Assembly: GCA_003168265.1 (NCBI GenBank)
Contig: PMSV01000005.1
Location: forward strand, 1-32,782
From: Chitinophagaceae bacterium
GTDB taxonomy: Bacteria > Bacteroidota > Bacteroidia > Chitinophagales > Chitinophagaceae
Direction of reading: 5' to 3'
DNA: 32,782 nt
A program made the position numbers and the translations under genes. The notes beneath the pieces are model-generated. The model worked only from the letters and a program-made list of their open reading frames with translations, was not told the origin of the DNA and did not search any database. Positions 11,891-28,142 of this stretch are shown here, piece after piece (within the stretch, counting starts at the first letter, position 1; each line of letters starts with the position of its first letter).

Positions 11891-12568
11891 TTAGGATTTG
11901 ATTTCTATCCGGCCGTCCAGCAGATCAATTATGCGAGTGCCATATTCGGCATTCTTTTCGGAATGTGTTACTTGTACAATCGTTACGCCTTCCTGGCGGT
12001 TCAACTCCTGAAATAGCGTCATGATCTCCTCTCCCTGCTTTGAATTCAGGTTGCCGGTGGGTTCGTCTGCCAGTAATAGTTTGGGCCGGGCCACAAGGGC
12101 ACGGGCAATTCCTACCAATTGCTGCTGTCCACCGGACAATTGCGAGGGAAAAAGGTCTTTTTTACCCACAATTTGGAATCGATCCAGCGCATCTGAAACA
12201 ATCGATTGCCGCGCGGAGGATTTGAGATTCTGGTAGATCAGCGGGGTTTCGATATTTTCATAAACCGTCAGTTCATCGATCAGGTGGTAGGCCTGGAAAA
12301 CAAAGCCGATATGTTGTTTATAAATCTGGGATCGTTGTTTCTCTTTTAACTGGTGTACCGGATTACCCAGAAAATGGTATTGTCCTTCGGAGGGCTCATC
12401 CAGCATGCCCAATACATTGAGCAGGGTCGATTTGCCGGAACCCGAAGGTCCCATGATGGATATGAATTCTCCCTGACTAATGGAGAGATCGATGTCTTTT
12501 AAAATAAAGGTCCTGATCCCGCCGATTGTTATCCATTTAGAAATATGTTTCAGTTCAATCATCAGCAA
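11891..12568 (-). CDS. ABC transporter ATP-binding protein, MacB/LolD type
   Basis: This 225-residue stand-alone nucleotide-binding domain would power a MacB/FtsX-type mechanotransmission permease. It has Walker A GPSGSGKST (40-48), Q-loop FQAYHLIDEL (Q92), ABC signature LSGGQ (144-148), Walker B LLLADEPTGNL (164-174) and H-loop VTHSE (H202). After the signature, the usual LSGGQQQRVAIARAL reads LSGGQQQLVGIARAL, with the common Arg replaced by Leu; catalytic residues are intact. The first ATG (12568) gives MLMIELKH; ATG 12562 is equally good. It is the promoter-proximal gene of the ATPase-TolC unit. Its missing permease may be one of the MacB-like proteins at 19.4-32.6 kb, whose middle unit carries a related upstream element. 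Confidence 0.9.
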   Translation of the reverse strand: MLMIELKHISKWITIGGIRTFILKDIDLSISQGEFISIMGPSGSGKSTLLNVLGMLDEPSEGQYHFLGNPVHQLKEKQRSQIYKQHIGFVFQAYHLIDELTVYENIETPLIYQNLKSSARQSIVSDALDRFQIVGKKDLFPSQLSGGQQQLVGIARALVARPKLLLADEPTGNLNSKQGEEIMTLFQELNRQEGVTIVQVTHSEKNAEYGTRIIDLLDGRIEIKS

Positions 12569-12696: not shown

Positions 12697-12884
12697 TTAC
12701 CTAATAATATACCGAAATCGAATAGCCTTGATTTACAAGGAGCTATATAGGTTTGTGGTCCCTGCCAGTCCGTTTCCGATACAGGAAGTGTACGCTTTTG
12801 GTACAGCATGACTCGTCCGGCTAAAGCTATACAGTTGAATGAATAAATCCTGGGAAGACTATACATAGTCGATAATTAAAGATA
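12697..12884 (-). repeat. Shared upstream regulatory block, copy 1
   Basis: This block aligns in order with 27957-28142. Shared elements on the plus strand are TAATAATAT/TAACTATAT, GATTTACA, GATACAGG/GTTACAGG, TGTACG-C/G-TTTTGGTACAG, GTCCGGCTA, CTATACAG, GAATAAATCCTG, ACTATAC and TTAAAGAT. It lies 130-315 bp upstream of the minus-strand ATPase gene. The other copy lies at a similar distance upstream of a minus-strand permease gene. Length is nearly equal in both copies. I read it as a conserved promoter/operator region, though a duplicated segment without function is possible. Confidence 0.65.
12789..12805. promoter_or_regulatory. TGTAC-N7-GTACA inverted repeat, putative operator copy 1
   Basis: Five-base arms TGTAC and GTACA are separated by GCTTTTG. 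The same element with seven-base arms occurs at 28043-28063. The centre lies about 229 bp upstream of the ATPase start. Symmetry and recurrence suggest a dimeric regulator site; the regulator is not in this window. Confidence 0.45.
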
Positions 12885-12907
12885 CTTGATTGTTTTTAGG
12901 CTTAAAA

Positions 12908-12944
12908 GGGGGACGGGGCCTTGACCTTTGGCGTAGCCGCCCCC
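12908..12944. other. GC-rich hairpin in the non-coding stretch
   Basis: GGGGG pairs with CCCCC; then, after one bulged A, CGG pairs with CCG. An inner GCC/GGC pair closes a short loop. It stands out from its AT-rich surroundings. A T-rich segment (GCTTTTTAG) follows on the plus strand. It could be a terminator or part of a small RNA; there is no further evidence. Confidence 0.35.
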
Positions 12945-13226
12945 GCTTCCTGCTTTTTAGTCCTCCGTGTTTTTTGTGAGACTGGCAGGGGGTTAGATTA
13001 TCGCTGAAGCCATGGAGTCTGATTTCATTACAGGCTGCTATGCTTTTTGCAATGCGCCGGCAGGCTTGTTCAAAGCTCTCCTAACTGATATAAAGATTAG
13101 GTTCTTCTTTGGTAATGCCGTTCATTCTGATTCGTCCGGCTATAGCTATTGGCCGGGTTAAAATATTTCTTCAAAGCAGGTCCGGCTAAATTATATTGCA
13201 GACCATTCCCTGAAAAAGGTTATGAT

Positions 13227-14261
13227 ATGATCTCGAAGAATATATTTTGGATAATACTGCTTTTGACGATGGCTTCCTGCCATTCTAATAAGGGCCGGCT
13301 GGAGGTCAGTAGTTTTTCCGGAAACGGGGTGATGCAGATGGCAGATGGCGGCCCAAAAGAGGCTGCATTTGCCAATCCGATGGGGATTGCGGCGGATGAT
13401 AGCGGAAATATTTATGTGGCCGACTCTCATAATAACAGGATCTGCAAGGTCAATTCCAAAGGAAGAGTGACAACCATCGCAGGGAGTGGTAAAGAGGGGT
13501 CTGAAGACGGGCAGGGAGCTGCTGCCAGCTTTTTTTATCCTACTGCACTGGCCCTTGATCATGCCGGGAATATATATGTGACCGATTCTCATAATAATCT
13601 AATCCGCAAAATCAGCCCAGGTGGTATGGTCACCACCTTGATCGGACGCAGAAAGGGCAGCGATACGGTGAGACTGGATAATCCGAATGGGATCGCAATA
13701 GATCAGCGCGGAAATGTCCTTTTTACGGATTATATGAATAATGTCGTCAGAAAGATCTTCCCTGATGGAAGGACTGTAATAGTAGCGGGAATCGTCGGGG
13801 ATCCAGGCATTGTCAATGGGGAGGCCGATTCAGCGAAATTTTACCTTCCCTGGGGCATAGCCGTTGATAAGTCTAATAATATTTATGTTGCTGATTCTTA
13901 TAATAATATGATAAGGCGTATCAGTTCCGATGGAAGGGTTTCGGTTCTGGCCGGGAAAATTAAGAAGGGCCATGCCGATGGAAGGGATACTACAGCTTCT
14001 TTCTTCCACCCTGCCGGACTTGCAACGGACCGGGATGGCAATATATATGTGGCTGACCTTGCCAATCAGAGAATCCGGAAGATCAACCCTGAAGGATGGG
14101 TCGAGACCATAGCCGGAAACGGAAAAAGAGGATCTGCCAATGACTTTGATACCCTTGCCAGTTTTGACAAACCCTATGGCCTTGCAATCGATAAGGCCGG
14201 CAATATTTTTGTCGCCGATTTCCTCAATAACCAGGTCCGGAAGATCAGTCCTGCCAACTAA
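13227..14261 (+). CDS. NHL-repeat beta-propeller lipoprotein
   Basis: This 344-residue exported protein carries six NHL repeats, enough for a closed six-bladed propeller. The start at 13227 gives MISKNIFWIILLLTMASC, a lipoprotein signal with Cys18 as the probable lipidated residue. Upstream in-frame codons (from a TTG at 13149) add only an implausible leader. The repeats follow the pattern D-x-x-G-N-I-Y-V-A-D-S-x-N-N-x-I-R-K-I-x-P-x-G-x-V-x-T-I-A-G, seen at DDSGNIYVADSHNN, DHAGNIYVTDSHNN, DQRGNVLFTDYMNN, DKSNNIYVADSYNN, DRDGNIYVADLANQ and DKAGNIFVADFLNN. Such proteins bind ligands or partners in the periplasm or at the cell surface; the specific role is unknown. It is transcribed away from the ATPase-TolC pair and stands alone. 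Confidence 0.85.
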   Translation: MISKNIFWIILLLTMASCHSNKGRLEVSSFSGNGVMQMADGGPKEAAFANPMGIAADDSGNIYVADSHNNRICKVNSKGRVTTIAGSGKEGSEDGQGAAASFFYPTALALDHAGNIYVTDSHNNLIRKISPGGMVTTLIGRRKGSDTVRLDNPNGIAIDQRGNVLFTDYMNNVVRKIFPDGRTVIVAGIVGDPGIVNGEADSAKFYLPWGIAVDKSNNIYVADSYNNMIRRISSDGRVSVLAGKIKKGHADGRDTTASFFHPAGLATDRDGNIYVADLANQRIRKINPEGWVETIAGNGKRGSANDFDTLASFDKPYGLAIDKAGNIFVADFLNNQVRKISPAN

Positions 14262-14405
14262 TTACTCCACTTAAGGCTTGAATCCCGGATTTAGAAATTA
14301 TTCCCGAAATAGGAGAATGTGTTTTCTCATTCTAACGCAATTAATTGTATTTCATTGAGTTAAATATTGGCAAGATAGTGGAATGTCTATGGAAAATCAT
14401 AATTT

Positions 14406-15071
14406 ATGAAAATAAATCGATCTACTAAAATGCTTAAGGCAAAGTCTATGCTTTTGATCTTATTCTGTTTACCGGCTTTTTGCTTAATTGCCGCAAACAC
14501 CCCGGTCCACGGTTCTTCTGAGGGTTCTGGACTGAATTCGGCCCTGAGTTCTTTTAACGCTAAGAAGGTGAATGAAAACTCGATCAGCCTTAGCTGGACT
14601 GCTATTAATGAAAGCGGGTTTAGTCATTATGAGCTTGAAAGCAGCCTGGATGGCTTGAACTTCCAACAGCATGGCCTGGTCATGACAGAGGAGAATAACA
14701 AGGATATGATCACTTATGCCTATACGGATCACTTGAAGACCAGCGCGAGCGGTCCTGTTTATTACAGACTTAAAGTGGTGGACATGAAAGGCAATAGCAG
14801 TTATTCAGCCATAGTTGTGGTCAATTCTTCTAAAGCAAGTGTGAATACAGACATGGTCAATGCCTATTCGAATTCGGACCAGGAATTTGCCGATAAAAAA
14901 TTTGATTTTGAGATCTATAATGCGAAAGGTACCGTGGTAAAGATGAAAACAGGTTTGAACCAAGAAAGCCTTCAGGGTCTTGATTTTTCTGAACTGGGAA
15001 TTGGTTCCTACCAGATGAAAACGATCTCGGGATCCAAGGTTTCATTTCAGAAATTCATAAGGTTGAATTGA
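14406..15071 (+). CDS. Secreted protein with fibronectin-like domain and probable T9SS type A tail
   Basis: This 221-residue exported protein has an N-terminal signal peptide (MLLILFCLPAFCLIAANT; the start could also be the ATG at 14430). Residues ~48-140 resemble the fibronectin-like unit common just before T9SS tails: ISLSWTAINESGFSHYELESS then YYRLKVVDMKGNSSYS. Residues ~165-221 look like a T9SS type A sorting domain: FEIYNAKGTVVKMKTG, then LGIGSYQMKTISG and the basic end FQKFIRLN. There is no recognisable enzyme domain, so this may be a remnant of a larger secreted protein or a small surface protein. It is a single gene ending at a strong terminator. Confidence 0.7.
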   Translation: MKINRSTKMLKAKSMLLILFCLPAFCLIAANTPVHGSSEGSGLNSALSSFNAKKVNENSISLSWTAINESGFSHYELESSLDGLNFQQHGLVMTEENNKDMITYAYTDHLKTSASGPVYYRLKVVDMKGNSSYSAIVVVNSSKASVNTDMVNAYSNSDQEFADKKFDFEIYNAKGTVVKMKTGLNQESLQGLDFSELGIGSYQMKTISGSKVSFQKFIRLN

Positions 15072-15129
15072 TCGAACCGACTCTTTGGTTCTCTATTCTT
15101 ATATTGGCTGTTTTTAATGTTGCGATTCG

Positions 15130-15155
15130 GCAGTGGAATTTTCCACTGCTTTTTT
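15130..15155 (+). terminator. Strong hairpin terminator
   Basis: GCAGTGGA / TCCACTGC forms an 8-bp stem around the 4-nt loop ATTT and is followed by six T (15150-15155). It lies 58 bp after the stop of the T9SS-tail protein. Confidence 0.88.
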
Positions 15156-15163
15156 GTTGGAGC

Positions 15164-15364
15164 CTAACGGGAGAGCTGCAATTCCTGATCCGCGAGTTGT
15201 TTTACTTCTTTTAACTCTTCTTCGGAATCCTGTTTGAAAAAATGGTGAACTTTCTTATAGTTGCCATTTACAATGGAGTAGATGTCCATTTTCTTGAAAT
15301 TGGGATATCTTTTCTCAAACTCCAGTATCATTGATTGAAGTCGGCCTTGAACCTGGGTTTCCAT
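15164..15364 (-). CDS. Small hypothetical protein
   Basis: This 66-residue protein is charged and mostly helical by appearance. From METQVQGRLQ it continues through EKRYPNFKKMDIYSIV to an acidic-basic C-terminal helix (EEELKEVKQLADQELQ). I chose ATG 15364; the same frame is open to an ATG at 15394, adding MYLIPSKFHT. I do not recognise a family. Amino-acid composition looks like a real cytoplasmic protein, and it sits just after a plus-strand terminator. It is followed upstream by another small minus-strand gene. Confidence 0.5.
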   Translation of the reverse strand: METQVQGRLQSMILEFEKRYPNFKKMDIYSIVNGNYKKVHHFFKQDSEEELKEVKQLADQELQLSR

Positions 15365-15464
15365 TGTGTGAAATTTTGAAGGGATAAGATACAATGAAAA
15401 CCCTTACCCGGGAGGGGATGGAATCCGGTCTTTCATTTGGGAATGCCAGGCCGAATCCCAGATT

Positions 15465-15662
15465 TTATTTGACTTTTTTCTTTTTTACCAGGTAGGGAAC
15501 AAAAAGCTTGCTTGCCTTTTCCAGCCTTTTTTTGAATTTTCTCTCTGATACTGAATCAGTTTTGAAGTCGGAAAGAGCGGTGGACAGCCTATCAAAAACC
15601 TCTTTTTTTGCCTCTTTCTTGCTGATATTTTCAGTCTTTTTCTTTTTTGTTTCTGTTGCCAT
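15465..15662 (-). CDS. Small lysine-rich hypothetical protein
   Basis: This 65-residue protein is very basic, with lysine clusters at both ends (ETKKKKTENISKKEAKK and LVKKKKVK) around a helical core (FDRLSTALSDFKTDSVSE, KFKKRLEKASKLF). No domain is recognised. The composition resembles small nucleic-acid-binding or histone-like proteins, but that is only a resemblance. The minus strand upstream of its ATG has an AT-rich stretch that could serve as a promoter. Confidence 0.55.
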   Translation of the reverse strand: MATETKKKKTENISKKEAKKEVFDRLSTALSDFKTDSVSERKFKKRLEKASKLFVPYLVKKKKVK

Positions 15663-16140
15663 ATTAACTTGTTTTATAATTTGATAGCCTAAATTTAATA
15701 CAAACTTAATATAGCCAATGTTAAGTTTTCGGGCGGAAGGCGGGGATTGAGGTCTTTATTTGCTATATCCCTTTTTACTCAATTCTGCAATAACCAACTT
15801 TTCCAAACTATTCTCAATGGTTGAGGAGCGTCCAAGATGCCTATCTGGTAGTTTATTTTGTCCAGCCTCCCAGGTCTTTTTGATGCAGATAGATCAAGAT
15901 GGGTTCCGCTGAGGCAAATGAGGAAAATGAATCTTCAGATTTTGAGGCTTTGAACCAGCATTGATGAATAGAATTCCAGGGAATAGGAATCTGCAAACAG
16001 GGAGGCTAGGGAGTCCAGACCTGGCGGGTTAAGAATATCCATCGCTTTTCAGGCAAAAAAAACGCCTGTATTAATTTTTCTGTAAATGAAATATAAACAA
16101 ATGATTGAATCGAATCAGGAACCTGGCAGAGCTGTTCCTT
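15663..16140. other. 478-bp stretch without an intact gene
   Basis: No ORF with a start is convincing. On the minus strand, 15756-15893 reads as 45 protein-like codons without an ATG (ending LEKLVIAELSKKGYSK and stop), perhaps the tail of a decayed gene. A CAGGC-N9-GCCTG hairpin lies at 16050-16068. The rest shows nothing I can name. Confidence 0.4.
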
Positions 16141-16449
16141 TTATTGAATGAGGCTATGGTTCTTTATGGAAAGCAGGTTCAGCAAATAAAAAATCACAGC
16201 CAGGGTGATGGAAAGGTAGAAGAGAACTTTTGTGCACATCAGGCAGCCAATCTCTAATTTTACCAGCGCCGACTTCGTGAGATCCCATTCGGCTTTGAGG
16301 TGATCGAACCTGATATTCCCATATCTGCTGCTGGTAAAGCGGTTCTTATACCTCAGTTTCAGTCTCTGGCTTTGCCAGATATTAAGCGCTTCGCTTATCA
16401 GGGCGATAACAATTGCAGGCACCCACCAGGAAGCCAAGGTAATGAGCAT
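16141..16449 (-). CDS. Hypothetical membrane protein with two hydrophobic segments
   Basis: This 102-residue protein has a hydrophobic segment near the N-terminus (residues 1-22, LASWWVPAIVIALISEALNI). A central basic, soluble-looking portion follows (RLKLRYKNRFTSSRYGN), then a second segment (residues ~75-93, VLFYLSITLAVIFYLLNLL). A CLMC pair sits just before the second segment and could bind metal or form a disulfide. No family is recognised. The layout suggests a small inner-membrane protein with two membrane passes. Confidence 0.5.
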   Translation of the reverse strand: MLITLASWWVPAIVIALISEALNIWQSQRLKLRYKNRFTSSRYGNIRFDHLKAEWDLTKSALVKLEIGCLMCTKVLFYLSITLAVIFYLLNLLSIKNHSLIQ

Positions 16450-16693
16450 AGTTTCAATGATTAATCAGACTAAAAAAATGGACCCCAAAAATTACTGAAA
16501 ATTTAGGAGATTTTCTTCTTGTTTGGAAATAATCAGAGATTGTTATTTGTTAAACGAACATTGATTACAAAGCCCACCGCATAACAGGGGGCTCAAGATA
16601 TGTTTTTATACCAAAACTCTACATGCTGCAATCTCAAGAGGGGTTTTTTAGACAGTCCAATCTGGTTTTGCACAAATGTGCATCCTGTCTGCA

Positions 16694-17256
16694 CTAAAGT
16701 TTTTCCCATTTCAGATAACCCAGGTTTAATTCGTCTACTTCAGGACATGGGATTGATGCCGGTTGAAGCCTGATTCGGTATTGGTTCTTGAATTTTTCGG
16801 GCAGAATGTCTTCAATGGCATAGAGGTCGTCCACATCCACTCCGTATTTATCATCGATATGGGATTCAGCACCCGGAAACCCAGCGTGTTTAAAGAAGGC
16901 GGACTCTTTACCCCTTCGTACGGCCTCCCCCTTATCCGGAGCGGCAATCAGGATTTTGTAGTGGAATTCTTCGAATTCCTGACTGCGATAACCGCCAAGG
17001 TTTAGAAAAAACAGCCTGGGAGCAACTGGGGAAGGGCCAATATCATTGCAAGGGCCTGTTATCCGAACCTCGTAACCATCCACTGTATTTACTTTACGCC
17101 ATGCGTCAAGATACAGTTTCCCCTCACTCTCCGGCCAAAAATCGAGCAGGTCGTGTTTGAGGGAGTTGATGCTTTCCCCGATTCCAAAAATACATCATGT
17201 TGTTCAATATTCCTTCCGAGTGGCATTGAGCCTAGAAGTACCATAAATAGGTTCAT
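16694..17256 (-). pseudogene. DUF1543 domain protein, broken by one frameshift
   Basis: Two minus-strand frames together encode one DUF1543-like protein of about 187 residues. The first frame starts at ATG 17256 (MNLFMVLLGSMPLGRNIEQHDVF), the usual start of this family. It then goes out of frame at a run of five T on the coding strand (A at 17186-17190 on plus). Restoring a sixth T gives HDVFFGIGESINSLKHDL, then FWPESEGKLYLDAWRKV and VDGYEVRI, continuous with the second frame, which ends LGYLKWEKL. Family function is not established. It is divergent from the LysE-type gene with a 73-bp gap. A single homopolymer deletion may be a real mutation or an assembly error. Confidence 0.8.
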
Positions 17257-17329
17257 ACCAAAGTTTTGGGCAAGATACAATTCATGCTGCCGTGAAAGAT
17301 TTTTTGGGAATTATCTTTATCTTCCATTG

Positions 17330-18151
17330 ATGATTGCATTGTTGACTTTATCATTGGTAGGCCTTTTCGTAGGCTTTGTTTTTTCCATGCCCATCGCGGG
17401 CCCTGTGAGCATCCTGATTACGACCCATGCCCTGAAAGGCCGCTTGAGTTTCTGTATACTGGCAGCCATCGGGGCCTCCGTGGCGGATTTCATTTATGTT
17501 TTTGCATCCGTCTTCGGACTGACACAATTCTATTCCTTCCTTAAACCCGCAATTCCCTATGTCTTGCTGGGCGGTATGTTTTTTCTTTTCTATATAGGTT
17601 ACCGGATTTCAAAAACCAGGCTGGACCTGGAAAAGTTCTCGCATGAAGGAGAAGGGACTGCGAATTCCCAAAACAGAAGGGGGTTTGTGATGGGTTTTTT
17701 GCTGAATTTTCTAAACCCTACTTTGTTTTTCAGTTGGATTACTTCTTCTTTTATCGTGATTTCCATAGTCTCTTCCTTGGGTTTCAGCACGGGAGGCCTT
17801 TCCAATACAGTGGACAATAGCTTCAATTCCATTAATAAGAAAGGAGAGGATTCAGCACTTAAGCAAAAGACCCTTTCCTACCTGCATATCGGGAAGAAGG
17901 ATGGATTAAAAAAGCTGCCTGTGGAAAAACCGGCTTCCTGGGGGCTTTCGCTTGTATCGAGCATCCTGTATGCATTTTTCCTTTCACTGGGAGGGGTGCT
18001 TTGGTTCGTCTATCTTTCCTATCTTCTCACGAGGAACCGACATAGGATAAATATCGGAACCATTAACTCGCTGATTCGTTGGCTGGGCTATTCGCTATAT
18101 TTTTTTGGGATCTTCCTGGGCTATCATGCCCTCACACTGTGGAGGTCCTGA
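17330..18151 (+). CDS. LysE/RhtB family exporter
   Basis: This 273-residue inner-membrane protein of the LysE translocator family exports amino acids or related small molecules by proton-coupled efflux. I start it at ATG 17330 (MIALLTLSLVGLFVGF), the expected first helix; the frame is open upstream to 17153, but that part is the antisense of the DUF1543 gene. Family marks are MPIAGPVSI after helix 1, GASVADFIYV in helix 2-3, and GFLLNFLNPTLFFSW in the middle. Between residues ~155 and 205 there is a hydrophilic insert (NTVDNSFNSINKKGEDS) that most ~210-residue family members lack. The last two membrane helices follow. Substrate unknown. Confidence 0.75.
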   Translation: MIALLTLSLVGLFVGFVFSMPIAGPVSILITTHALKGRLSFCILAAIGASVADFIYVFASVFGLTQFYSFLKPAIPYVLLGGMFFLFYIGYRISKTRLDLEKFSHEGEGTANSQNRRGFVMGFLLNFLNPTLFFSWITSSFIVISIVSSLGFSTGGLSNTVDNSFNSINKKGEDSALKQKTLSYLHIGKKDGLKKLPVEKPASWGLSLVSSILYAFFLSLGGVLWFVYLSYLLTRNRHRINIGTINSLIRWLGYSLYFFGIFLGYHALTLWRS

Positions 18152-18157
18152 AAAATA

Positions 18158-18175
18158 GAGGCGTTGCCGCCTTTC
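18158..18175 (+). terminator. Weak hairpin after the LysE-type gene
   Basis: AGGCG / CGCCT forms a 5-bp stem around TTGC, seven bases after the stop codon, with only TTT afterwards. It is a possible weak terminator. Confidence 0.35.
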
Positions 18176-18271
18176 CAAAATAGGCAAATGAAAAGATGCG
18201 GCTATGGTCAAGATGGAGTTTTGAGTGTAGAGCAGGCGTAGTTCTTTTTTCTAAATTCTAAATAAATCCCC

Positions 18272-19426
18272 ATGATTCGCCTGAACCGATTATTATGGCC
18301 GGCATTTTTCTTCCTGTCTCCTATTTTTGTTCAGGCCCAGAAAAACTATTATCCTGATTCGGCCTGGCAATCCCGAAAGCCTTCCGAATTGCATATGAAT
18401 GCTCATGCACTTGACAGCGCAATTAAGTTTGTTATGGCGCATGACAGCAAGACCAATTATAATTTGAAGATCGCCGATTACGAAGCCTACGCAGATGAGC
18501 CTAATTACCGGATAATGGGGCCAATGAAGGACAGGGGCAAACCGGCCGGCCTGATAATAAGGAATGGTTATATCGTCGCCCAGTGGGGGGATCCGGGCAG
18601 GGTAGAGATGACTTTCAGTGCGACTAAGAGCTATCTGTCCACAATGGCGGGACTAGCATTTGATCAGGGCCTGATCAGGGGCCTGGACGAGCCAGTTAAA
18701 AACTATGTAACGGACAATACTTTTGACGGAGAACATAACGGAAAAATAACCTGGAGGCATTTACTGACCCAGTCCTCCGACTGGTCAGGCTGCCTTTTCG
18801 ATATCTGCGACTGGGCTGACCGACCAGTTCCACATGGAGGCTCTATTGACCAATGGAAGAACAGGCAACTCTTCGAACCGGGCACGCATTTCAAATACAA
18901 TGATGTTAGGGTAAATCTTCTGGCTTTTTGCCTCCTGCAGGTTTGGAGAAAGCCCCTGCCGATGGTCCTGAAGGAAAGGATCATGGATCCCATCGGCGCT
19001 TCTTCGACCTGGCGTTGGTATGGCTATGACAATTCCTTTGTGAATATTGACGGGCTCATGATGCAATCCGTGAGCGGGGGAGGGCATTTCGGAGGAGGGC
19101 TCTTTATCAATACTTATGATCATGCGAGATTCGGATTGCTTTTCCTGAGGAAGGGCAAATGGAAGGACCGTCAAATTCTGTCGGAAAACTGGGTGAAGGC
19201 CGTGCAGCAACCTTCAGATGCCTTTAAATCTTATGGATTCATGTGGTGGCTGAATGCCGAAGGAATGTACAAGGACGCTCCGAGTAGTATCTATCTGGCG
19301 GAAGGTTTCGGAGGCAATTTCGTTGTGGTGGACAATGAACATGACCTTGTCATCGTAGCACGCTGGCTCGAACCTTCCAGCCTCAATGAATTCCTGAAAC
19401 TGGTCATCGCTTCGGTAGAGAAATGA
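18272..19426 (+). CDS. Exported serine hydrolase, class C beta-lactamase fold
   Basis: This 384-residue protein has a signal peptide (residues 1-23, ending FVQAQ). It belongs to the beta-lactamase/penicillin-binding-like serine hydrolases (Pfam Beta-lactamase), which act in the periplasm on amides or esters, often peptidoglycan fragments or unknown substrates. The nucleophile motif S-x-x-K is S116-A-T-K119 (FSATKSYLST). The second motif is Y209-N-D (HFKYNDVRVN). The third, usually KTG or HxG, is probably in LAEGFGGNFVVV. Family words RHLLTQSSDW and FGLLFLRKGKW are also present. It converges with the broken permease gene, with only six bases between stop codons. True beta-lactamase activity is unlikely for this branch but not excluded. 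Confidence 0.82.
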   Translation: MIRLNRLLWPAFFFLSPIFVQAQKNYYPDSAWQSRKPSELHMNAHALDSAIKFVMAHDSKTNYNLKIADYEAYADEPNYRIMGPMKDRGKPAGLIIRNGYIVAQWGDPGRVEMTFSATKSYLSTMAGLAFDQGLIRGLDEPVKNYVTDNTFDGEHNGKITWRHLLTQSSDWSGCLFDICDWADRPVPHGGSIDQWKNRQLFEPGTHFKYNDVRVNLLAFCLLQVWRKPLPMVLKERIMDPIGASSTWRWYGYDNSFVNIDGLMMQSVSGGGHFGGGLFINTYDHARFGLLFLRKGKWKDRQILSENWVKAVQQPSDAFKSYGFMWWLNAEGMYKDAPSSIYLAEGFGGNFVVVDNEHDLVIVARWLEPSSLNEFLKLVIASVEK

Positions 19427-19432
19427 GGGGAT

Positions 19433-21838
19433 TTATTCATTTCTCAGTCTTTGTGCAGGTGATTCGAAAACGGCTTTCGCGCTCTGCAATATGATCAATC
19501 CGGCAGTTAAAGTGAAAATGATGATGCTGACCGCAAGGTAAGGGCCCGGCCCCTGACTTATCCGGAAGGCAAATTCTTCCAACCAGCTCTGCGATGCAAT
19601 AAAGGCCAGTGGCCATCCGATTAAATTCGATAAGAGTATCAGTAAACCATATTCGCGGATAAAAAGCAGGAAAATATTTCCGGCATTGGCCCCCAGTACC
19701 TTTCTTAAGGCAATTTCCTTTGCCCTACGGTTCAGGGAGAAGGCAAGAATACCAAATAGCCCTGTGAACAGGATCAACAGGCATAGACCCGTGGCGATCT
19801 GTGCTGCTGATTTGAGTTCTTCTTCATTCTGGTACATCTTCCGGAATCATCATCCATGAACTTGTACTCGAATCCGGCTTCGGGGAAGATTTTGCTCCAG
19901 AGCTCCCCGATCGATGCGATGCTTTGGGAGGGGTTTTTCGTATTTAGCTTTAGCGAAAAATATCGGTAAGACCTCGTAAAGGGTTCATTCAGCCCTGCGA
20001 TAACAAGGGGATCGATGGATTGCTTCAATGACTCAAAATGAAAGTCCTTCACCATGCCTACAATTTTCAGCGGCATGCCAGCGAATGCTCCCAGATGAAT
20101 CGTCTTTCCAACAGGGTTTTCCCAGCCTAGCAGCCTGGCTGCCGATTCATTCAATACCACATTTCCGGGCGTGGGTTCTCCCTCCCTGCTCAGGAATATG
20201 CCTGATTCCAGAATGATATTATAGACTCTTGCATAATCCTGGTCTACTGCCAGCAAAAGCATGCTAATGGGCTGGGCGCCTTCTCCAAATACATTGATAT
20301 TGCCGGCGCTTCCCGAAGGAATATCGTAGGAGAGAAGCGGAACTGATTCCGGGAATTTGGTCGATCTCAGACTTGAAGCGCTCCATTTTTTCAACGCCTG
20401 CAGAATCCCAGATTCTTGGAATGGATGAGATGATCATGACCTGGTCTCGCTGATACCCCATATTCTCATGAAAAATATATTTCACTTGTCCGGAGATAAC
20501 AAGTGCGCAGATGAATACGAGGGCTGAAAGGGAAAACTGGACTAATAGGAGTACCCTGCGCAGTGTTAATGCCCCTCTACCGGAATCAGTTTTCCCCCTG
20601 ACTGATTCGACAATAGGATTGGCGCTTAAGAAGAAGGCCGGGTAGATTCCTGCGGTAAGTCCAAGGCCGAGGGTCAGCAGGATCAGGTAGCCTATTTCCT
20701 TCAATTCAAAATGGCTCAGCGAATCCAATTCCGTTTTTAATAATTGTTCAAAAAGCGGACGCAGGAGTTCATAGGCAACGAGGGAAATGATGAAAGCAAT
20801 TCCTGTCAATACCAGGGATTCTGCCAGGAATTGAAAGACCAGTTGGGTCCTGGCCCCGCCGAAAACCTTTCTCAATCCAATCTCTTTAAGACGACCTGCT
20901 GAAATTCCAATATGGATATTCACATAATTGATCACGGCAAGCAACAGGATAAAGGAGGCGATCCATTCCAGGGAATGGATCATTTTCAAGACTGAACGGT
21001 CATTGGCATTGAGCTGATAATCTTTTAGGGGCTCGAGTTCGGTGCGAAGATTTCCCCTGACAAAATCCGGCTGATATTTTTTCAATATGCTGGCCATCGG
21101 CGCATCAAGGTCGTCCGGTTTCACGCCGGGTTTCAGTTCGATCATGCTAACCATAAAAATATTGGCCCAGTTATCCCCCTGATCGCCGCCCTGGAAGTAC
21201 TTATTATTGTACATGGGAAGGAAGACCTGGTAAGGGGTTTTGGAGATCGCGAATGATGAAATATTGTTGAATGGCAACTTTTTCAACACCGCTGAAATAA
21301 AATAATCGTGTCTGGCTCCATCTGAAGGAGTTTGAATACTAATGCGTTCGCCCAGGGCATTTGTTCTGCCAAAGTATTTCAGGGCGAATTCTTCGCTTAT
21401 TATAGCTGACTGGTTGTTGGCGAATGGTTTTTCCGGATTTCCATAAAGAATGGGAAAACCATACATGGAAATAAAGCTGGTATCGCCTATTGAAATATCT
21501 TCCCTGAAATGCTTTCCGTTAACAGATACAATATTGGCTACCGGGTCGAAGCGGTAATAGTTGGCTACCAGTCCGGGATATTCTTCCATCAGTATTTTGG
21601 CAAGGGGACCCAGTGTGGTGATATCGATCCCCATATTTTGTTTCTTCCAAATGCTTTTGATGAGGAATTGGCGATCGATGTTCCGGATTTGCTTATTTAC
21701 TCCTTGCTGTTTGAGGATATAGACCCCGATCAGCAGGGAGAAACTGAGACCGGTTGCAAGACAGAGGATTTGAATTCCAGAGAAGAGCAAATGCTTCCGG
21801 AATTGCCGAACGGCGATGATAAAATAATTTCTGATCAT
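19433..21838 (-). pseudogene. MacB/FtsX-type ABC permease, broken by two frameshifts
   Basis: Three consecutive minus-strand frames add up to one ~800-residue permease like its neighbours. From 21838 (MIRNYFIIAVRQFRKH) the first frame covers the first MacB periplasmic domain and first FtsX domain (EIGLRKVFGGARTQLVFQF). It goes out of frame at the CT run near 20329-20336; adding CT restores ISSASLSYDIPSGSAGN, matching the ATTSYYKPAG of a paralogue. The second frame runs to 19845-19846, where adding one T gives FMDDDFRKMYQNEEEL. The last frame holds the second FtsX domain (EIALRKVLGANAGNIF) and ends RLRNE. Unrepaired, the product stops after 524 residues. Both lesions are deletions in short runs, so assembly error must be excluded. 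Confidence 0.85.
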
Positions 21839-21942
21839 GGCCTTTGTTATTGGGTAAGATGGATTAGGGCTAATCTATCCGTACTTTCAATATCCAAATC
21901 AAAATTCCATAATCCTTTTGAAATAGCATGGGGCATTTCAAA

Positions 21943-24360
21943 TTATTCCGTTCTCAAACTCTTTACCGGGTTGGCAATGGCCGCGCGAATTGCCTGGATG
22001 CTGATTGTAACCAGAGCCAGGATCAAGGCCATGAGGCCAGCAAGCGGGAATACCCACCAATGAAGACTGGTCCGGTAAGCGAAACTCTCGAGCCATTTGT
22101 TCATTCCCCACCAGGCGACCGGAAAGGCAAGAATGCATGAAATCAGGACAAGTAAAAGCAGGTCTTTGGATACCAGGCGGGTCAGTTCTGATACGCGGGC
22201 TCCGAGTACTTTACGGATCCCGATTTCGCGGGTGCGCTGTTCCACCGTAAAGGTGATCAATCCGAAAAGGCCCAGGCTTGCCACGAGAATAGTAAGGGAT
22301 GAGAAGATATCCAATATGGTTCCTGTCTTTTGTTCCGTGGCATAGGTCTTGTTATAGAGATCATTCATGAATTCATAGCTAAAGGGCTCGCCTGTGTTGA
22401 ATGCTTCCCAGGTTTTTTGCATGGACGCAATCAGAGCGGGCAGTTCAGCCGTTTTGATCTTTAGTATCAGGCCACTTTCAGGGTAAAGGTCCATGAGGAG
22501 GGGGCTGATTGTTTCATGCAATGACCGGAAATGAAAATCCCTGACAACGCCAATGATATGGTAGGGAATATTCGCGCCGCGATTGCTGTTTTGCTGAACG
22601 ATCGTTTTGCCTATTGCGCTTTGAACATTCCAGCCGAATGCCCGGGCTGCCGTTTCGTTTATGATCATGCCAGTGGAATCCGTCTGCATGTCTTTTGAGA
22701 AATTCCTGCCGGAGGCCATACTCAAACTGAGGCAGGGGATATAATTTTCATCAACATTGTATTCGAGGGCCTTCATGATCTGGTTGTCGTTGCCTAGTGG
22801 ATAAATAAGGGAATTGTTGTTTCCTGAAGGGCCGGCCGGTTTATAATAGGAAGTTGTGGCCTGCAAGACTCCCGGCAACCGGATTATTTCTTCCTTAAAG
22901 ACTTTTTCATTTTTTCCCAGTGTGTACGAATTGGGTATTGTCATCAAGTGGTCTTTGTCATAGCCGAGTTTTTTATTCCTTATATACTGCATCTGCTGGT
23001 AAACGACAATCGTAGCTATGATCAGGCTGACTGAAATGAAGAATTGGAGCACTACCAAAATACTTCTCAGGGTGAATTTGCCTGTAACCTGGCTGAATTT
23101 GCCCTTGAGGACCGACACTGCCCGGAAGGATGAAAGCACGAATGCAGGGTAGCTTCCTGCGAGTAAGCTCACGAGGATGCCCAATCCGAGAAAACCGGCA
23201 AGCGGTTGAGGACTGATCCGGAATGAGAGATTCTTGCCGGAGATATCATTAAAAAGAGGGAGGGACCATTTGATCATGGCAAAAGACAGCGCCATTGCAA
23301 TGGCCACAAGGAGGGAGGACTCAAAAAGAAACTGGATGATCAGATCGAACCTGCCTGAGCCGACCACTTTGCGGACTCCCACTTCACGGGCTCTCTTGAC
23401 GGCAGCAGCCGTGGAAAGGTTGATGAAATTGAAACAGGCGATGAGCAGCATGAAGATGGCAATCAAACCGAAAATATAGATATAAGAGGCATTCCCTCCA
23501 GGTTCCAACTCCGTGCTGGTGTCTGCATGTAAATGCACGTCTGTAAGCGGCTGAAGGCTGAAACCGAGTTCATTGCCCTTGGTGCGGAATTGTTCCAGAC
23601 TGAGGCCCATAGATTGCTGGATCTGGGGCCCCATGTATTTTTCTACCATGGCCGGAAAACGGGCCTGCAGTGCTTTCGGATCTGCGCCCGGTTTTAGCAG
23701 CAGGTAGGTGTGAAATCCTCCATACATCCAGGAATCGCTCAATGCAGGAGGCCAGCCGACCGTGGAACCGAACATATCGAAATGAATGTGGGAATTCTGA
23801 GGGAGATCATGTAACACCCCTGTTATTTTATCGATCGTCTGAAGATTATTGATCGCAATGGATTTGCCGATGGCGTCTTCAGTGCCGAATAATTTGCGGG
23901 CCATTGATTCTGTAATGACTACGGTATTGGGTTCAGTCAGGGCGGTTTCTGGACTGCCTTTTGAAAAGGGGAAGGAGAATAGTTTAAAAAAACCGGGGTC
24001 GACCAGGGCAAAGCCATTATCCCTGAATGAATCGTTCTTGTAAAAGACTTTTAGGTTTCCCATGGAATTCAGCCTAACAGCCTCCTGCACTTCCGGAAAA
24101 TCCTTTTTCATAGTGCCTGCAACAGGCGCCATGGAAACGCTTTCTTTGATCTTTCCACCGTTAATGCTGGCATTGAAAATTACCCGATAGATGCGGTCAG
24201 CATCTTTATTGAAGCGGTCATAGCTCCATTCGTCATGAACATAAAGCATTATGATAAAGCAAACCGTAATCCCTATTGAAAGACCTGCAATATTGATGAT
24301 GGTAAAGATCCTGTTCTTTTTCAGGTTGCGCCAGGCAGTTAGCAGGTAATTTCTAAGCAT
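21943..24360 (-). CDS. MacB/FtsX-type ABC transporter permease
   Basis: This intact permease of about 805 residues has the duplicated layout: N-terminal helix (MLRNYLLTAWRNLKK then INIAGLSIGITVCFIIMLYV), first MacB-type periplasmic domain, three helices with the FtsX motif REVGVRKVVGSGRFDLIIQF, a middle helix (SILVVLQFFISVSLIIATIVV), second periplasmic domain, and a last FtsX unit with EIGIRKVLGARVSEL. It ends KSLRTE. Such proteins couple cytoplasmic ATP hydrolysis to movements of the periplasmic domains, as in MacB efflux or LolCDE lipoprotein release. There is no ATPase domain of its own and none next to it. I start at ATG 24360, the family's usual M-L-R-N-Y; the frame also opens at 24375. 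It may share a transcript with the DUF4097 and permease genes upstream. Confidence 0.88.
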   Translation of the reverse strand: MLRNYLLTAWRNLKKNRIFTIINIAGLSIGITVCFIIMLYVHDEWSYDRFNKDADRIYRVIFNASINGGKIKESVSMAPVAGTMKKDFPEVQEAVRLNSMGNLKVFYKNDSFRDNGFALVDPGFFKLFSFPFSKGSPETALTEPNTVVITESMARKLFGTEDAIGKSIAINNLQTIDKITGVLHDLPQNSHIHFDMFGSTVGWPPALSDSWMYGGFHTYLLLKPGADPKALQARFPAMVEKYMGPQIQQSMGLSLEQFRTKGNELGFSLQPLTDVHLHADTSTELEPGGNASYIYIFGLIAIFMLLIACFNFINLSTAAAVKRAREVGVRKVVGSGRFDLIIQFLFESSLLVAIAMALSFAMIKWSLPLFNDISGKNLSFRISPQPLAGFLGLGILVSLLAGSYPAFVLSSFRAVSVLKGKFSQVTGKFTLRSILVVLQFFISVSLIIATIVVYQQMQYIRNKKLGYDKDHLMTIPNSYTLGKNEKVFKEEIIRLPGVLQATTSYYKPAGPSGNNNSLIYPLGNDNQIMKALEYNVDENYIPCLSLSMASGRNFSKDMQTDSTGMIINETAARAFGWNVQSAIGKTIVQQNSNRGANIPYHIIGVVRDFHFRSLHETISPLLMDLYPESGLILKIKTAELPALIASMQKTWEAFNTGEPFSYEFMNDLYNKTYATEQKTGTILDIFSSLTILVASLGLFGLITFTVEQRTREIGIRKVLGARVSELTRLVSKDLLLLVLISCILAFPVAWWGMNKWLESFAYRTSLHWWVFPLAGLMALILALVTISIQAIRAAIANPVKSLRTE

Positions 24361-24383
24361 AAACAAATATTTCAATTAAATGA

Positions 24384-24440
24384 TCATTCTGTTCTAAGGC
24401 TTTTGACGGAGTTGGCAGGGCTTGCTTTCAGGGCATGGAA
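24384..24440 (-). pseudogene. C-terminal scrap of a deleted MacB/FtsX permease
   Basis: On the minus strand these bases read FHALKASPANSVKSLRTE and a TGA stop, directly after the DUF4097 stop codon. Intact neighbours end FQALKAAISSPVKSLRTE, IQAIRAAIANPVKSLRTE and FQAIRAAMMNPVRSLRTE, so the match is unmistakable in position and sequence. It is the last 18 codons of a permease whose body is gone, and it now forms the gap before the next permease gene. Confidence 0.8.
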
Positions 24441-24454
24441 AAAAACGCGTTCCT

Positions 24455-25486
24455 TCAGCGAAAGGACAGATTGACCTTTCCGCCACTTGTTTGGGCATAG
24501 ATAGGGACTCCACCTCCATTGACAGTACCTTCAATTTTATTATCTTTCACTGTTCCGCTGAAATTATTCAAAGTGATATTCTTGTCAACCCCGTCTCCGT
24601 ATAATTTGAGATCATAACCTTTTCCACCAGGAATCTGCAGGTCGATATGGCCACCGGAATCCTTCAGTTTGACATATTTCCCGATTTCTTTTATGTCTGC
24701 ATTAATACTGCCTCCGCTTGTAGAAGCGTCCAGGCTGCAGGAGAGCGAGCGCAGGTTAATGCTTCCTCCGGAAGTAGTAGTGACCAGCTCGCCGCCAATT
24801 CCTTCCCCGTCGACAGAACCGCCACTGGTGGAGGCCCTGATCTCTCCATGCAAATCGTTTAATCCAAGCGAGCCGCCGGAAGTACTGAGCCGGATATTTC
24901 CGGAACAATGTTCTGCGTTGATTCCACCTCCACTGGTCTCCATATCGATGAGACCTTTCGAAGAAGAAATATGGATACTGCCACCGCTTGTGCTTCCGTT
25001 GATTTTGCCCGAAAGGCCATCGACGGTCAGGCTCCCTCCGCTTGTCCTGAAGTCTTCATCTCCTGATAATTTGCCGATGCTGATGCTTCCACCGCTGGTA
25101 GACAGTTTTGAAGAGAGGTTTTCAGAAACAAATATTTTGAATGATATACTGAGGGAATTGTTCCAATTGATTATTCTGTCCTTTGGAAGGGCTTTGGCCA
25201 GTAGTTTATGATCCGAGACGGAAATATCGAAATCGAAGTCCTTTTCCAACTTTGCCTTGATTTCCTCATTGGTAAGGTTCAGATGCCTGCCATTACCTGA
25301 AATATAGACTTCAATTCTTGCGTCCTGGCTATGGCCGCCGGTGAGTTCGATACTACCTCCAGAAGTCTTTGCCTCTACGTTTTGGATGTCTGAGGTGGAA
25401 AGGGATTTGGTCAGATATGGGATTTTCTGTGCAAGACCCAAGCCTGAAAGGCCAATCATCAATGCAATTAAAAAGATCTTTTTCAT
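24455..25486 (-). CDS. DUF4097 family beta-repeat exported protein
   Basis: This 343-residue exported protein has signal peptide MKKIFLIALMIGLSGLGLAQ. The mature part is a DUF4097-type beta-solenoid with eleven T/D-S-G-G motifs. In the middle, seven consecutive units have an exact 18-residue period, each starting TSGGS/G (TSGGSISIGKLSGDEDFR, TSGGSLTVDGLSGKINGS and so on). Residues ~55-120 are a less repetitive insert containing a lysine-rich helix (NEEIKAKLEKDFDFDI). The function of DUF4097 is not established; members often sit with envelope-stress genes. It starts 12 bp after the stop of the upstream permease gene on the same strand, so it is probably co-transcribed with permeases and may work with them in the periplasm. 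Confidence 0.82.
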   Translation of the reverse strand: MKKIFLIALMIGLSGLGLAQKIPYLTKSLSTSDIQNVEAKTSGGSIELTGGHSQDARIEVYISGNGRHLNLTNEEIKAKLEKDFDFDISVSDHKLLAKALPKDRIINWNNSLSISFKIFVSENLSSKLSTSGGSISIGKLSGDEDFRTSGGSLTVDGLSGKINGSTSGGSIHISSSKGLIDMETSGGGINAEHCSGNIRLSTSGGSLGLNDLHGEIRASTSGGSVDGEGIGGELVTTTSGGSINLRSLSCSLDASTSGGSINADIKEIGKYVKLKDSGGHIDLQIPGGKGYDLKLYGDGVDKNITLNNFSGTVKDNKIEGTVNGGGVPIYAQTSGGKVNLSFR

Positions 25487-25498
25487 ATAGTGTTTTTT

Positions 25499-27865
25499 TT
25501 ATTCTGTTCTTAAACTTTTCACAGGACTGGAAATGGCTGCTTTCAAAGCCTGAAAGCTGACCGTCAGCATGGAGATCAAAATGATCACCAGTGCGGCCAC
25601 GACAAATACAACCCATCCCAAAGGGACACGGTAGGAAAAACTCATGAGCCAAAGGCTCATGAGCCACATAGAAAGCGGAAAAGCCAGCAGCATAGCTATG
25701 AAAATCAGATAAAGGAAATCCCTGGAAAGCAATTGAAAAATATTGGATGAAGATGCGCCGACGATCTTCCGGATTCCGATTTCTTTTTGCCTGCGCCTCG
25801 CAGTAAAGGCAGCCAGTCCGAATAAGCCCAGGCAGGAAATGATGATGGCGAGCCCGGCAAAATATTTGGAAAGGATCGAAACCTTTTTCTCCGCGTCGTA
25901 TTGGGCCTGGTAGGCATCATCCAGGAAATTGAATTCGAAGGGAAAGTCCGGATTGAATGTTTTATACAGTGCTTCTATACTGGAAATCGTTTCTTTTTGA
26001 TCATTGGAACTGATGCGGACCATTATTTTATCCCAGGAATTGCCATAGGGATTCAGTGCAATATATAGCGGGACTACGGGCTGGTGCAAGGACTCAAAAT
26101 GAAAGTCTTTTACGACACCAATGATCTGCCTGTCAGCGCCGAACCATTTTACCATTCGCCCAACCGGGTTCTTCCAACCTATCGATCTGGCGGCTGTTTC
26201 ATTGATGATAATGCCTGTAGTGTCCAGGCCATAGCTCCTGGAATAACTTCGACCGGCGGCCATTTGCATGTTCATCGTTTCTATAAAATCATATCCTGCA
26301 TTAATGCCTTCGAAATAATAGATCCCGTTCGGGTCCCTGCCGGGCCAAATGATCATATCTCCGCCGTAATTCCTCCCAATCATGCCGTGGGTGGTATAAC
26401 TGGCATTGACGACGCCGGGGATCTTCTTCAATTCGGAAATAAAACCCTCTTCATTTTGAAGTATTCTTCCTTCTGCACTGAACCGAACTATATTGTCTTT
26501 ATTGAATCCCAGGTTGATATGCTGGATGAGTTCAAGCTGGCGATAAACGACAAGGACCGAGATGATGAGGGTGATGGTGATAGTGAATTGAAATACAACC
26601 AAACCTTTTCGTGCCCATATTTCCCCCCACAATGTCCGGAGCTTGTTCTTCAGAATACTGACCGGTTGGAATCCGGATAAGTAAAAAGCCGGGTAGCTGC
26701 CGGCAAGCAGACCTGTAATCAGGGTGATGGCGGCCAGACCGGAAAACAGGGTGGGTCCTAATCGAAAATGGAGGTTTTTACCTGTGATCTGGTTGAAGCT
26801 TGGTATTAGAAGCCAGGTTAAGAGTAGCGCAAATAAAGCGGCGATGAGGGAGAGCAGGAAGGACTCGCTCAGGAATTGAAATACCAATTGTCCCCGGTCC
26901 GCCCCGACGACTTTTTTGATACCTACTTCTTTTAGCCTCTTGGAAGCCTTGGCCGTTGAAAGATTCATGAAATTGATACAGGCAATGACCAGGATAAAGA
27001 TGGCGACCAAAGAAAACAAACGCACGTATTCTAAACGGCCTCCCACGCGAGCCCCATGTACAAAGCTGTTTTGGAGGTAGGCTCCTGAAAATGCCAGTGC
27101 AAAGACCTTCCGGGTTGTGTCTCCGCAATTTTCTGTTACCAGATTGGAGATTCTTCTGTTGAATGTATTGAGATCGGCGCCCAGTCTCAATTTTACAAAA
27201 TTGTGGGGACCACCATTACCCCAGTCCTCTACCCAGCCTGCTGTCTGGCCGTAGTACTCGAAAGGCATGACAAAGTCAAATTGTTGCGAAGAATTGGCAG
27301 GCAGGTCTTTAAAAATTCCGGAGACATGAAAGGTCGTATCATGTTGGAAGCGGATAGGTTGGCCGATCAGGCCTGTTGCTTTGCCGAATAATTTTTTGGC
27401 CACGCTTTCGGAAAGGACAATGCTGGTATTGATCTTAAGCAAGTTGTCACGATCACCTTCGATGAGGGGAACGGCGAAGATGTTAAAATAATCTTCTCCG
27501 GCATATTGGCCCCAGGCTTTGATGTTTTTATCTTCAACAGTCAGCGTGAATTTCTGAAACCAGTTGGGAGGGGCAAGTGCAGCCGCATATTCCACTTCGG
27601 AAACACGGGTCTTAACCGCTCTGGCAAGGGGCCCGGAAGATTCATCGCTGATGCCGGGATTCCCGGAATAGGTCCGGGTTTCCATTAATTGATAGATTTG
27701 CCCCAGGTCAGGATAAAATTTGTCCACACTGTATTCATCGGACACCCATAAATAGATCAACAGGGCGCAGGCTATCCCCGTGGAAAGGCCGACCAGGTTT
27801 AGCAGGGTGAATTGCTTGTCCCGAATCATATTTCTCCAGGCGATCTTCAAATGGTTTTTGAACAT
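25499..27865 (-). CDS. MacB/FtsX-type ABC transporter permease
   Basis: This intact 788-residue permease is the first gene of the minus-strand unit that continues into DUF4097 and the next permease. It begins MFKNHLKIAWRNMIRDKQF with helix VGLSTGIACALLIYLWV, then the first MacB-type periplasmic domain. FtsX domain 1 has KEVGIKKVVGADRGQLVFQF. A middle helix (FQFTITITLIISVLVVY) and second periplasmic domain (IIGVVKDFHFESLHQPV, a phrase conserved across the array) follow. FtsX domain 2 carries EIGIRKIVGASSSNIFQL, and the end is KSLRTE. It lacks an ATPase domain. The ~185-bp block shared with the ATPase-TolC locus lies just upstream, which suggests joint control. Confidence 0.9.
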   Translation of the reverse strand: MFKNHLKIAWRNMIRDKQFTLLNLVGLSTGIACALLIYLWVSDEYSVDKFYPDLGQIYQLMETRTYSGNPGISDESSGPLARAVKTRVSEVEYAAALAPPNWFQKFTLTVEDKNIKAWGQYAGEDYFNIFAVPLIEGDRDNLLKINTSIVLSESVAKKLFGKATGLIGQPIRFQHDTTFHVSGIFKDLPANSSQQFDFVMPFEYYGQTAGWVEDWGNGGPHNFVKLRLGADLNTFNRRISNLVTENCGDTTRKVFALAFSGAYLQNSFVHGARVGGRLEYVRLFSLVAIFILVIACINFMNLSTAKASKRLKEVGIKKVVGADRGQLVFQFLSESFLLSLIAALFALLLTWLLIPSFNQITGKNLHFRLGPTLFSGLAAITLITGLLAGSYPAFYLSGFQPVSILKNKLRTLWGEIWARKGLVVFQFTITITLIISVLVVYRQLELIQHINLGFNKDNIVRFSAEGRILQNEEGFISELKKIPGVVNASYTTHGMIGRNYGGDMIIWPGRDPNGIYYFEGINAGYDFIETMNMQMAAGRSYSRSYGLDTTGIIINETAARSIGWKNPVGRMVKWFGADRQIIGVVKDFHFESLHQPVVPLYIALNPYGNSWDKIMVRISSNDQKETISSIEALYKTFNPDFPFEFNFLDDAYQAQYDAEKKVSILSKYFAGLAIIISCLGLFGLAAFTARRRQKEIGIRKIVGASSSNIFQLLSRDFLYLIFIAMLLAFPLSMWLMSLWLMSFSYRVPLGWVVFVVAALVIILISMLTVSFQALKAAISSPVKSLRTE

Positions 27866-27878
27866 ATTTTTAAATAAT

Positions 27879-27896
27879 TTATTCCGTTCTTAAACT
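27879..27896 (-). pseudogene. Minimal C-terminal relic (SLRTE-stop) of a lost permease
   Basis: On the minus strand this reads AGT TTA AGA ACG GAA TAA, i.e. S-L-R-T-E-stop, the exact C-terminus of the array's permeases. About 20 bp match the end of the gene at 25499 with one mismatch. It sits 14 bp before the start of the next permease, where a tandem neighbour would have ended. Confidence 0.6.
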
Positions 27897-27956
27897 TTAT
27901 TTGAATGAGACGGCCGATATTTCGAAGGTTCAGGGTACAAATCCAGGTAAAGTCAG

Positions 27957-28142
27957 TCTAACTATATGCCGGAATGGAACTTAATGATTTACAGTGGGCT
28001 ATTATATGGTTATAGGGTTCCCAGTTCGCTTTCGTTACAGGCACTGTACGGTTTTGGTACAGTCTATACTAGTCCGGCTATACCTATACAGGTGAAAGAA
28101 TAAATCCTGATTAAACTATACAAGCTTCATTTTTAAAGATTA
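27957..28142 (-). repeat. Shared upstream regulatory block, copy 2
   Basis: This is the counterpart of 12697-12884, of nearly equal length and with the same order of shared words. It lies about 90-280 bp upstream of the permease gene that starts at 27865, in the same orientation relative to that gene as copy 1 has to the ATPase gene. The best conserved core is about 28040-28115, from the inverted repeat to GAATAAATCCTG. Confidence 0.65.
28043..28063. promoter_or_regulatory. ACTGTAC-N7-GTACAGT inverted repeat, putative operator copy 2
   Basis: Seven-base perfect arms surround GGTTTTG. It has the same spacer length and nearly the same spacer sequence as copy 1. The centre lies about 188 bp upstream of the permease start. 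It fits a site for a homodimeric repressor or activator. Confidence 0.5.

Follow-up and report, generated by a model that had tools for sequence, protein, structure and literature searches.

Two upstream blocks in a Chitinophagaceae genome and their probable place in one sigma-54 regulon of modular exporter genes

The window analysed here is the entire contig C9 (32,782 nt) of a 4.30 Mb Chitinophagaceae genome in 24 contigs. It carries an ABC ATPase with a TolC-type channel and, some distance away, a group of MacB-type permeases, and both sets are preceded by a similar upstream block. The first-pass annotation proposed a dispersed exporter or envelope-stress regulon in which one ATPase and one duct serve several permeases. 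The reading favoured here, with good confidence, is that both blocks, called A and B below, are promoters belonging to a single sigma-54 regulon, which would serve a modular export system of MacB/ADOP-like type.

The window and the anatomy of its two blocks

The minus strand reads through two permeases, block B, a permease, a DUF4097 protein, a permease and an interrupted permease, then approximately 6.5 kb of unrelated genes, block A, the ATPase and the TolC-type channel (Table 1). Because the window is a whole contig, the first of these permeases may be cut by the contig end. The interrupted permease has its middle part in a different frame from both ends, a break that decay and a sequencing error would explain alike. 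Positions 1-4655 hold a 1546-aa frame of 318-nt tandem repeats, with ten in-register copies of at least 62% identity to the first.

Table 1. Positions of the exporter genes, block elements and repeat copies in the window, and of the candidate activator gene on contig C7
Feature	Position	Strand	Remarks
FtsX permease, probably incomplete	30844..32649	-	Near contig end; 57% identity to the permease of locus L172
Duplicated permease upstream of block B	28195..30624	-	
Copy of the ~73-nt repeat abutting block B	28068..28140	.	
Block B, putative paired 17-bp activator sites	28023..28061 (28045-28061 + 28023-28039)	-	
Block B, IHF-like element	27984..27993	-	TGTAAATCAT
Block B, sigma-54-like -24/-12 element	27958..27970	-	GGCAT-N4-TTAG; 91 bp from site 1 start
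Duplicated MacB_PCD-FtsX permease, 788 aa	25499..27865	-	First gene under block B; ADOP model 318 bits
DUF4097 protein	24455..25486	-	Second gene under block B; PF13349
Duplicated permease, 810 aa	21943..24375	-	
Interrupted permease	19433..21838	-	Pieces 20264-21838, 19774-20394 and 19433-19837, in two frames
Unrelated genes, ~6.5 kb	12885..19432	.	NHL, sorting-tail, LysE-like, beta-lactamase-fold; between permeases and ATPase-TolC
Copy of the ~73-nt repeat abutting block A	12811..12883	.	Contains TCCGGCTA
Block A, putative paired 17-bp activator sites	12767..12805 (12789-12805 + 12767-12783)	-	Upstream of ATPase-TolC
Block A, IHF-like element	12729..12738	-	TTGTAAATCA; between sites and promoter
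Block A, sigma-54-like -24/-12 element	12701..12713	-	GGTAT-N4-TTAG; 92 bp from site 1 start
MacB/LolD-type ABC ATPase without adjacent permease	11891..12568	-	PF00005, E 1.9e-36
TolC-type outer-membrane channel (OEP)	10396..11874	-	PF02321, E 3.7e-46; directly after ATPase
NtrC-type activator	C7:117216-118583		Outside window; PF00158 E 1.7e-61, PF02954 E 3e-15, PF00072 E 6.1e-20

Block A (query 12697-12900) matches 27985-28153 with 74% identity over 168 nt (E 3.5e-22) in a whole-genome search for which the reciprocal was run too. The likeness of the two blocks claimed by the first-pass annotation is therefore real, and both contain the TGTAC-N7-GTACA inverted repeat that it described (12789-12805 and 28045-28061). 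Each is also followed by a minus-strand gene as claimed, with approximately 130 nt from block A to the ATPase and 90 nt from block B to the permease.

In the direction of the genes, each block comprises two 17-bp sites, then an IHF-like element and lastly a -24/-12 promoter of sigma-54-like form. Inspection of the sequence ahead of 26 MacB_PCD genes in this genome gave a clear pair of sites before nine of them (eight outside the window and the one under block B). These nine promoters were aligned with block A and with the promoter beside a predicted activator gene on contig C7. The 17-bp site reads TGTATCRAAACCGnACA and occurs twice per block, the paired sites being 21-22 bp apart in the 11 aligned promoters; the exact TGTAC-N7-GTACA seen in A and B is its symmetric form. 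Between sites and promoter lies TGnAAATCA, which resembles an IHF site and in which TG and TCA are invariant in all 11. Measured from where site 1 begins, the GG of the GGCAT-N4-TTGG element lies 90-93 bp away in ten of the 11; in the eleventh (on contig C20) the distance is 71 bp as measured and approximately 92 bp after site 1 is re-registered 21 bp upstream. The sigma-54 promoter consensus is TGGCAC-N5-TTGC, whereas the -12 part here reads TTGG, TTGA or TTAG.

A larger alignment (A4) holds 66 hits at E<=0.001 from an input of the window and 71 of 80 ATPase loci, which contributed 64 of the 66. Its consensus is TGTATCAaAAcCGnAC / cTGTatCanAAgCGnAC / tTGataaTcA / TGGcATgTnaTTGA, and since the alignment was fitted to the model it leans towards that model. 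The GG is present in all 66 rows and the last motif is TGGcAT-N4-TTGA, which has the form of a sigma-54 -24/-12 element. Judged by its sequence, the layout of the block is that of a sigma-54 promoter with putative upstream activator sites.

Recurrence of the block in this genome and in relatives

Scanning the genome for the exact inverted repeat, as the first-pass annotation had advised, returned three places, namely A, B and a site inside a 1074-aa frame (C8:95075), with one place for the backwards control. With one of only three places lying inside a frame, the exact repeat was discarded as the regulon motif.

A sequence-only model (R1) was instead built from nine promoters outside the window, eight of them before permeases and one before an adaptor gene. 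Its scan of the same genome gave 671 candidates, of which 150 were scored, the E-values of such models being rough. Eleven hits scored 46 bits or more and the next 22.4 bits. The eleven consist of the nine training promoters and the two held-out blocks, B (27958-28064, 53.9 bits, E 6.9e-14) and A (12700-12805, 46.0 bits, E 2.1e-11). All eleven precede permease, ATPase-TolC or adaptor genes, a count in which nine are training promoters and eight of these had been chosen upstream of permeases. The same-strand genes that follow comprise 13 intact duplicated permeases, one interrupted permease, two ATPases, one HlyD-type adaptor and one TolC. Counted by open frame, intact permeases of approximately 800 aa number 19 in the genome, of which 13 are under a strong block and six are not, one of the six following the 22.4-bit hit (C12:188108). 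Among the 19, C7:121214 alone has a window-ATPase match at a distance of 5 kb or less, and no ATPase match shows up in any of the eight units beyond the window that consist of permeases only. Four weak hits (C1:52500, C8:230972, C17:217096 and C12:175186; 17.5-21.5 bits) were rejected as noise; no exporter homologue was detected near them at tblastn E<=1e-6, and one of these stretches has a kinase match.

Among other genomes, all 23 same-genus relatives have R1 hits (3-33 each at E<=1e-3, from 95 scored candidates in every genome), and a single weak hit occurs in each of three out of 15 genomes from other families. Within the genus, G010 and G021 have three and five hits and G002 has 33, which suggests wide variation in the permease set. 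The strongest 26 of the 113 hits in G002, G007, G009 and G014 were inspected with no choice by gene. Permeases follow 19 of them, adaptor operons four and ATPase-TolC pairs two, and one (L293) is followed by none of the genes searched for. With the motif redrawn in this way, the dispersed exporter regulon with a common block proposed by the first-pass annotation passes the genome scan, with 11 of 11 hits before exporter genes in this genome and 25 of 26 elsewhere.

The block was also sought in loci encoding homologues of the window ATPase (75-88% identical), taken as the best 80 of at least 574 and mostly from Chitinophagaceae and Mucilaginibacter. A hit at E<=1e-3 is present in 67 of these best 80 loci and lacking in 13. 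There are 69 hits in all, of which 63 precede the ATPase by 14-269 nt, five precede a permease by 12-399 nt and one is further off. Of the 13 loci that lack a hit, six have a permease directly adjoining the ATPase, at no more than 60 nt. L188 and L210 show weaker hits at the corresponding position (17.6 and 12 bits).

A and B also share an adjoining repeat of approximately 73 nt with the core CAGGATTTATTC...CTGTATAG...GGACGAG, so that their likeness could in principle stem from recent local duplication or hitch-hiking on this repeat, with no shared regulation. The promoter part, however, recurs in nine other promoters of this genome and in the 67 of the best 80 ATPase loci, and the repeat is adjacent to the promoter in few cases only. 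Recent duplication as the sole cause is contradicted by this conservation across genomes, and the explanation as a whole is very improbable. The repeat itself has 18 copies in eight of 41 genomes searched, of which eight abut a block, one is cut at a contig end and nine have no block hit in their locus. It includes TCCGGCTA, which the first-pass annotation had taken as the motif core; this sequence belongs to the separate repeat just upstream and, being found also without the block, was dropped as the core of the regulon. One copy (G000:C10:5003-5075) adjoins the C-terminal part of a permease, and others are found in L336-L351. The repeat may be a mobile element or a second regulatory module.

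The predicted activator and the possible sharing of parts

Contig C7 encodes a histidine kinase together with a REC-Sigma54_activat-HTH_8 protein, divergently from an adaptor-ATPase-permease operon and with a block in the intervening DNA. RpoN is encoded in the genome as well (PF04552 at C4:41731-42204, E 5.7e-52). This two-component NtrC-type activator is the likely regulator, with binding predicted from sequence. Orthologues were found in 22 of 23 same-genus relatives (69-83% identity) and in all 19 ATPase-carrier genomes searched (67-81%), the copy in G057 having an internal stop. These carriers were taken from 20 of the 80 ATPase loci, with L198 left out; G009 and G049 seem to be the same genome, which makes the two sets overlap by one. 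No orthologue was found in G003 (80% complete), despite its 16 block hits, or at E<=1e-100 in any of the 15 other-family genomes, including the three with a weak block hit. The block lies beside the activator in its own genome, in 21 of the 22 relatives and in 18 of the 19 carriers, the last two groups giving 39 of 41 loci. The two exceptions are L266, which ends at a contig edge, and L323 (Olivibacter), where the orthologue has no block. No block was found at ten paralogue loci (L325-L334), and a 51% paralogue (L324) has a hit of 24.7 bits. Identity of the HTH region is 89% among orthologues (median of 41) versus 45% among 17 paralogues, a few of which aligned only in part. The paralogous sigma-54 activators of L328-L332 (38-40% identical) adjoin permease homologues and have no block, and other activator-permease pairs without this block may exist.

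The paired sites might alternatively be bound by some other dimeric regulator, with the C7 pair merely adjoining one target promoter. The link between site and regulator consists of position and co-occurrence, and this alternative would accommodate both the hits in G003 and the three other-family genomes, where no orthologue was found, and the blockless orthologue of L323. However, a -24/-12 promoter requires an enhancer-binding protein, the block keeps company with the orthologue and with none of the ten paralogues, and among the orthologues the HTH shows higher conservation than the remaining domains. Another regulator is accordingly improbable, and the C7 activator is retained as the candidate.

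The gene order around the ATPase bears on how the exporter parts came to be separated. Of the best 80 of at least 574 ATPase loci, 63 have the C-terminal end of a permease upstream of the ATPase in the same orientation, 55 of them at a distance of 700 nt or less. TolC follows the ATPase in 77, and two of the other three loci end too early. An alpha/beta hydrolase, the downstream neighbour in the window, is kept in 14 of these best 80 loci, and in 11 of the 14 a permease precedes the ATPase by at most 700 nt. Homologues of the four genes that intervene in the window were found in none of the 80. As an upstream permease is common in related loci and the intervening genes are absent from all 80, the window is probably an ancestral permease-ATPase-TolC run split by the unrelated genes. 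No match to a permease remnant better than E 0.3 was found between 12.6 and 19.4 kb. The ATPase-TolC pair, called permease-less by the first-pass annotation, is so locally, but same-strand permeases lie beyond the intervening genes. L224 has the order permease-permease-DUF4097-ATPase-TolC, in which a DUF4097 homologue (52%) sits between permease and ATPase. Two relatives have a permease between ATPase and TolC (L194 5714-8113 and L204 5944-8337). A tblastn search of the best 80 loci at E<=1e-8 detected no counterpart of the C7 adaptor, kinase or activator. In 17 of these 80, two of them represented by stretches of approximately 1 kb or less, the stretch contains no upstream permease; the block is present in 15 of the 17, so ATPase-TolC pairs without neighbouring permeases recur under this promoter.

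In the proposed mechanism, the histidine kinase and the response regulator (REC-AAA+-Fis HTH) of C7 would act through binding to the paired 17-bp sites approximately 100 bp upstream of the -24/-12 element. The DNA would be bent at the IHF-like site between them, and the activator would turn on the RpoN polymerase. Three kinds of target would be co-induced, namely the adaptor-ATPase-permease operon beside the regulator, the ATPase-TolC pair under block A and the permease-only units scattered over the genome (that of block B plus eight more). As the permease-only units have no ATPase of their own, they would most likely rely on one or other of the two co-induced ATPases, together with the adaptor and the duct. 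The number of genes under the block is compatible with such sharing, although two ATPases are under it rather than the one of the first-pass annotation. Taken alone, sharing of ATPase and duct has a slightly better than even chance of being correct. The suggestion of envelope stress found little to sustain it, its single hint being that the DUF4097 protein gives a weak LiaG-like match, with a score far below the cut-off.

A regulon may also be co-regulated with no parts held in common, each dispersed permease using an unlinked ATPase or none. The genome has 39 matches to the window ATPase, several of which are MacB/LolD-like (for example C10:62846, C10:64129 and C23:15744) and could serve the permeases. 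Against this, the block precedes no more than two of the ATPases found, 55 of the best 80 loci have a permease ahead of the ATPase at 700 nt or less, and of the 17 loci whose stretch contains no upstream permease, 15 keep the block at the ATPase-TolC pair. Regulation without sharing is thus a credible possibility with a chance well short of even, and sharing is preferred. A fuller form of the sharing model is a hub-and-spoke exporter, in which one two-component sigma-54 activator would co-induce a hub (two ATPases, adaptor and TolC) and a lineage-specific collection of a dozen or more dispersed duplicated permeases, each bringing its own specificity to a common motor and duct; its chances appear evenly balanced. 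If it is true, the set could grow by the placing of this promoter before a new permease.

Comparison with known systems

The exporter parts resemble MacAB-TolC in having MacB-type permease and ATPase domains and a TolC-type channel. They differ in that ATPase and permease are separate genes and no adaptor lies near the ATPase-TolC pair, and the MacB equivalog cut-off (NF007826, 966 bits) is missed by the ATPase (204.9 bits) and the permease (86.6 bits). The permease, adaptor and ATPase models of the darobactin exporter DarBCD all match, but below their cut-offs (DarD 242/375, DarC 139/450, DarB 103-137/700). Similarity to ADOP (TIGR03434) is seen in the duplicated MacB_PCD-FtsX architecture, full-length or nearly so, and in the 18 of 19 permeases without a window-ATPase match within 5 kb. 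The ADOP scores of 318.4, 309.4 and 244.3 bits (the first two from window permeases) are nevertheless below the cut-off of 622.3, and the genes are here found in Bacteroidota rather than acidobacteria and under predicted sigma-54 control. A precedent for one ATPase shared among ABC transporters is MsmK, presented in PMC4519317 as common to several sugar ABC importers; those are importers of Gram-positive bacteria, whereas the systems here are exporters for which sharing is proposed from gene content.

Regulons of the NtrC/AtoC/ZraR type likewise combine a REC-AAA+-HTH_8 activator and a kinase with paired sites approximately 100 bp upstream of -24/-12. The C7 activator misses the AtoC, ZraR and NtrC equivalog cut-offs, and its predicted targets are scattered exporter parts. 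No earlier report of this activator, site or regulon was found in searches of an open-licence literature library. PMC3162934 ties sigma-54 to the cell exterior, with the terms Bacteroid and permease absent from its main text. A related prediction comes from a PSSM survey of 2025 (PMC12316311), which predicts sigma-54 promoters upstream of the same permease family, the FtsX-like permeases (COG0577), in Bacteroidia and calls this the first evidence of its kind. No activator site, named activator or ATPase-TolC pair was encountered there, and the terms UAS, upstream activating, Chitinophag and Sphingobacter do not occur in its main text. Duplicated FtsX/MacB permeases without an adjacent ATPase are numerous, as the 18 of 19 in this genome illustrate, and a promoter signature tied to one activator would offer a direct way to group them. 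With the C7 protein and the paired 17-bp site, the 2025 prediction for COG0577 permeases gains a specific candidate activator and a candidate site.
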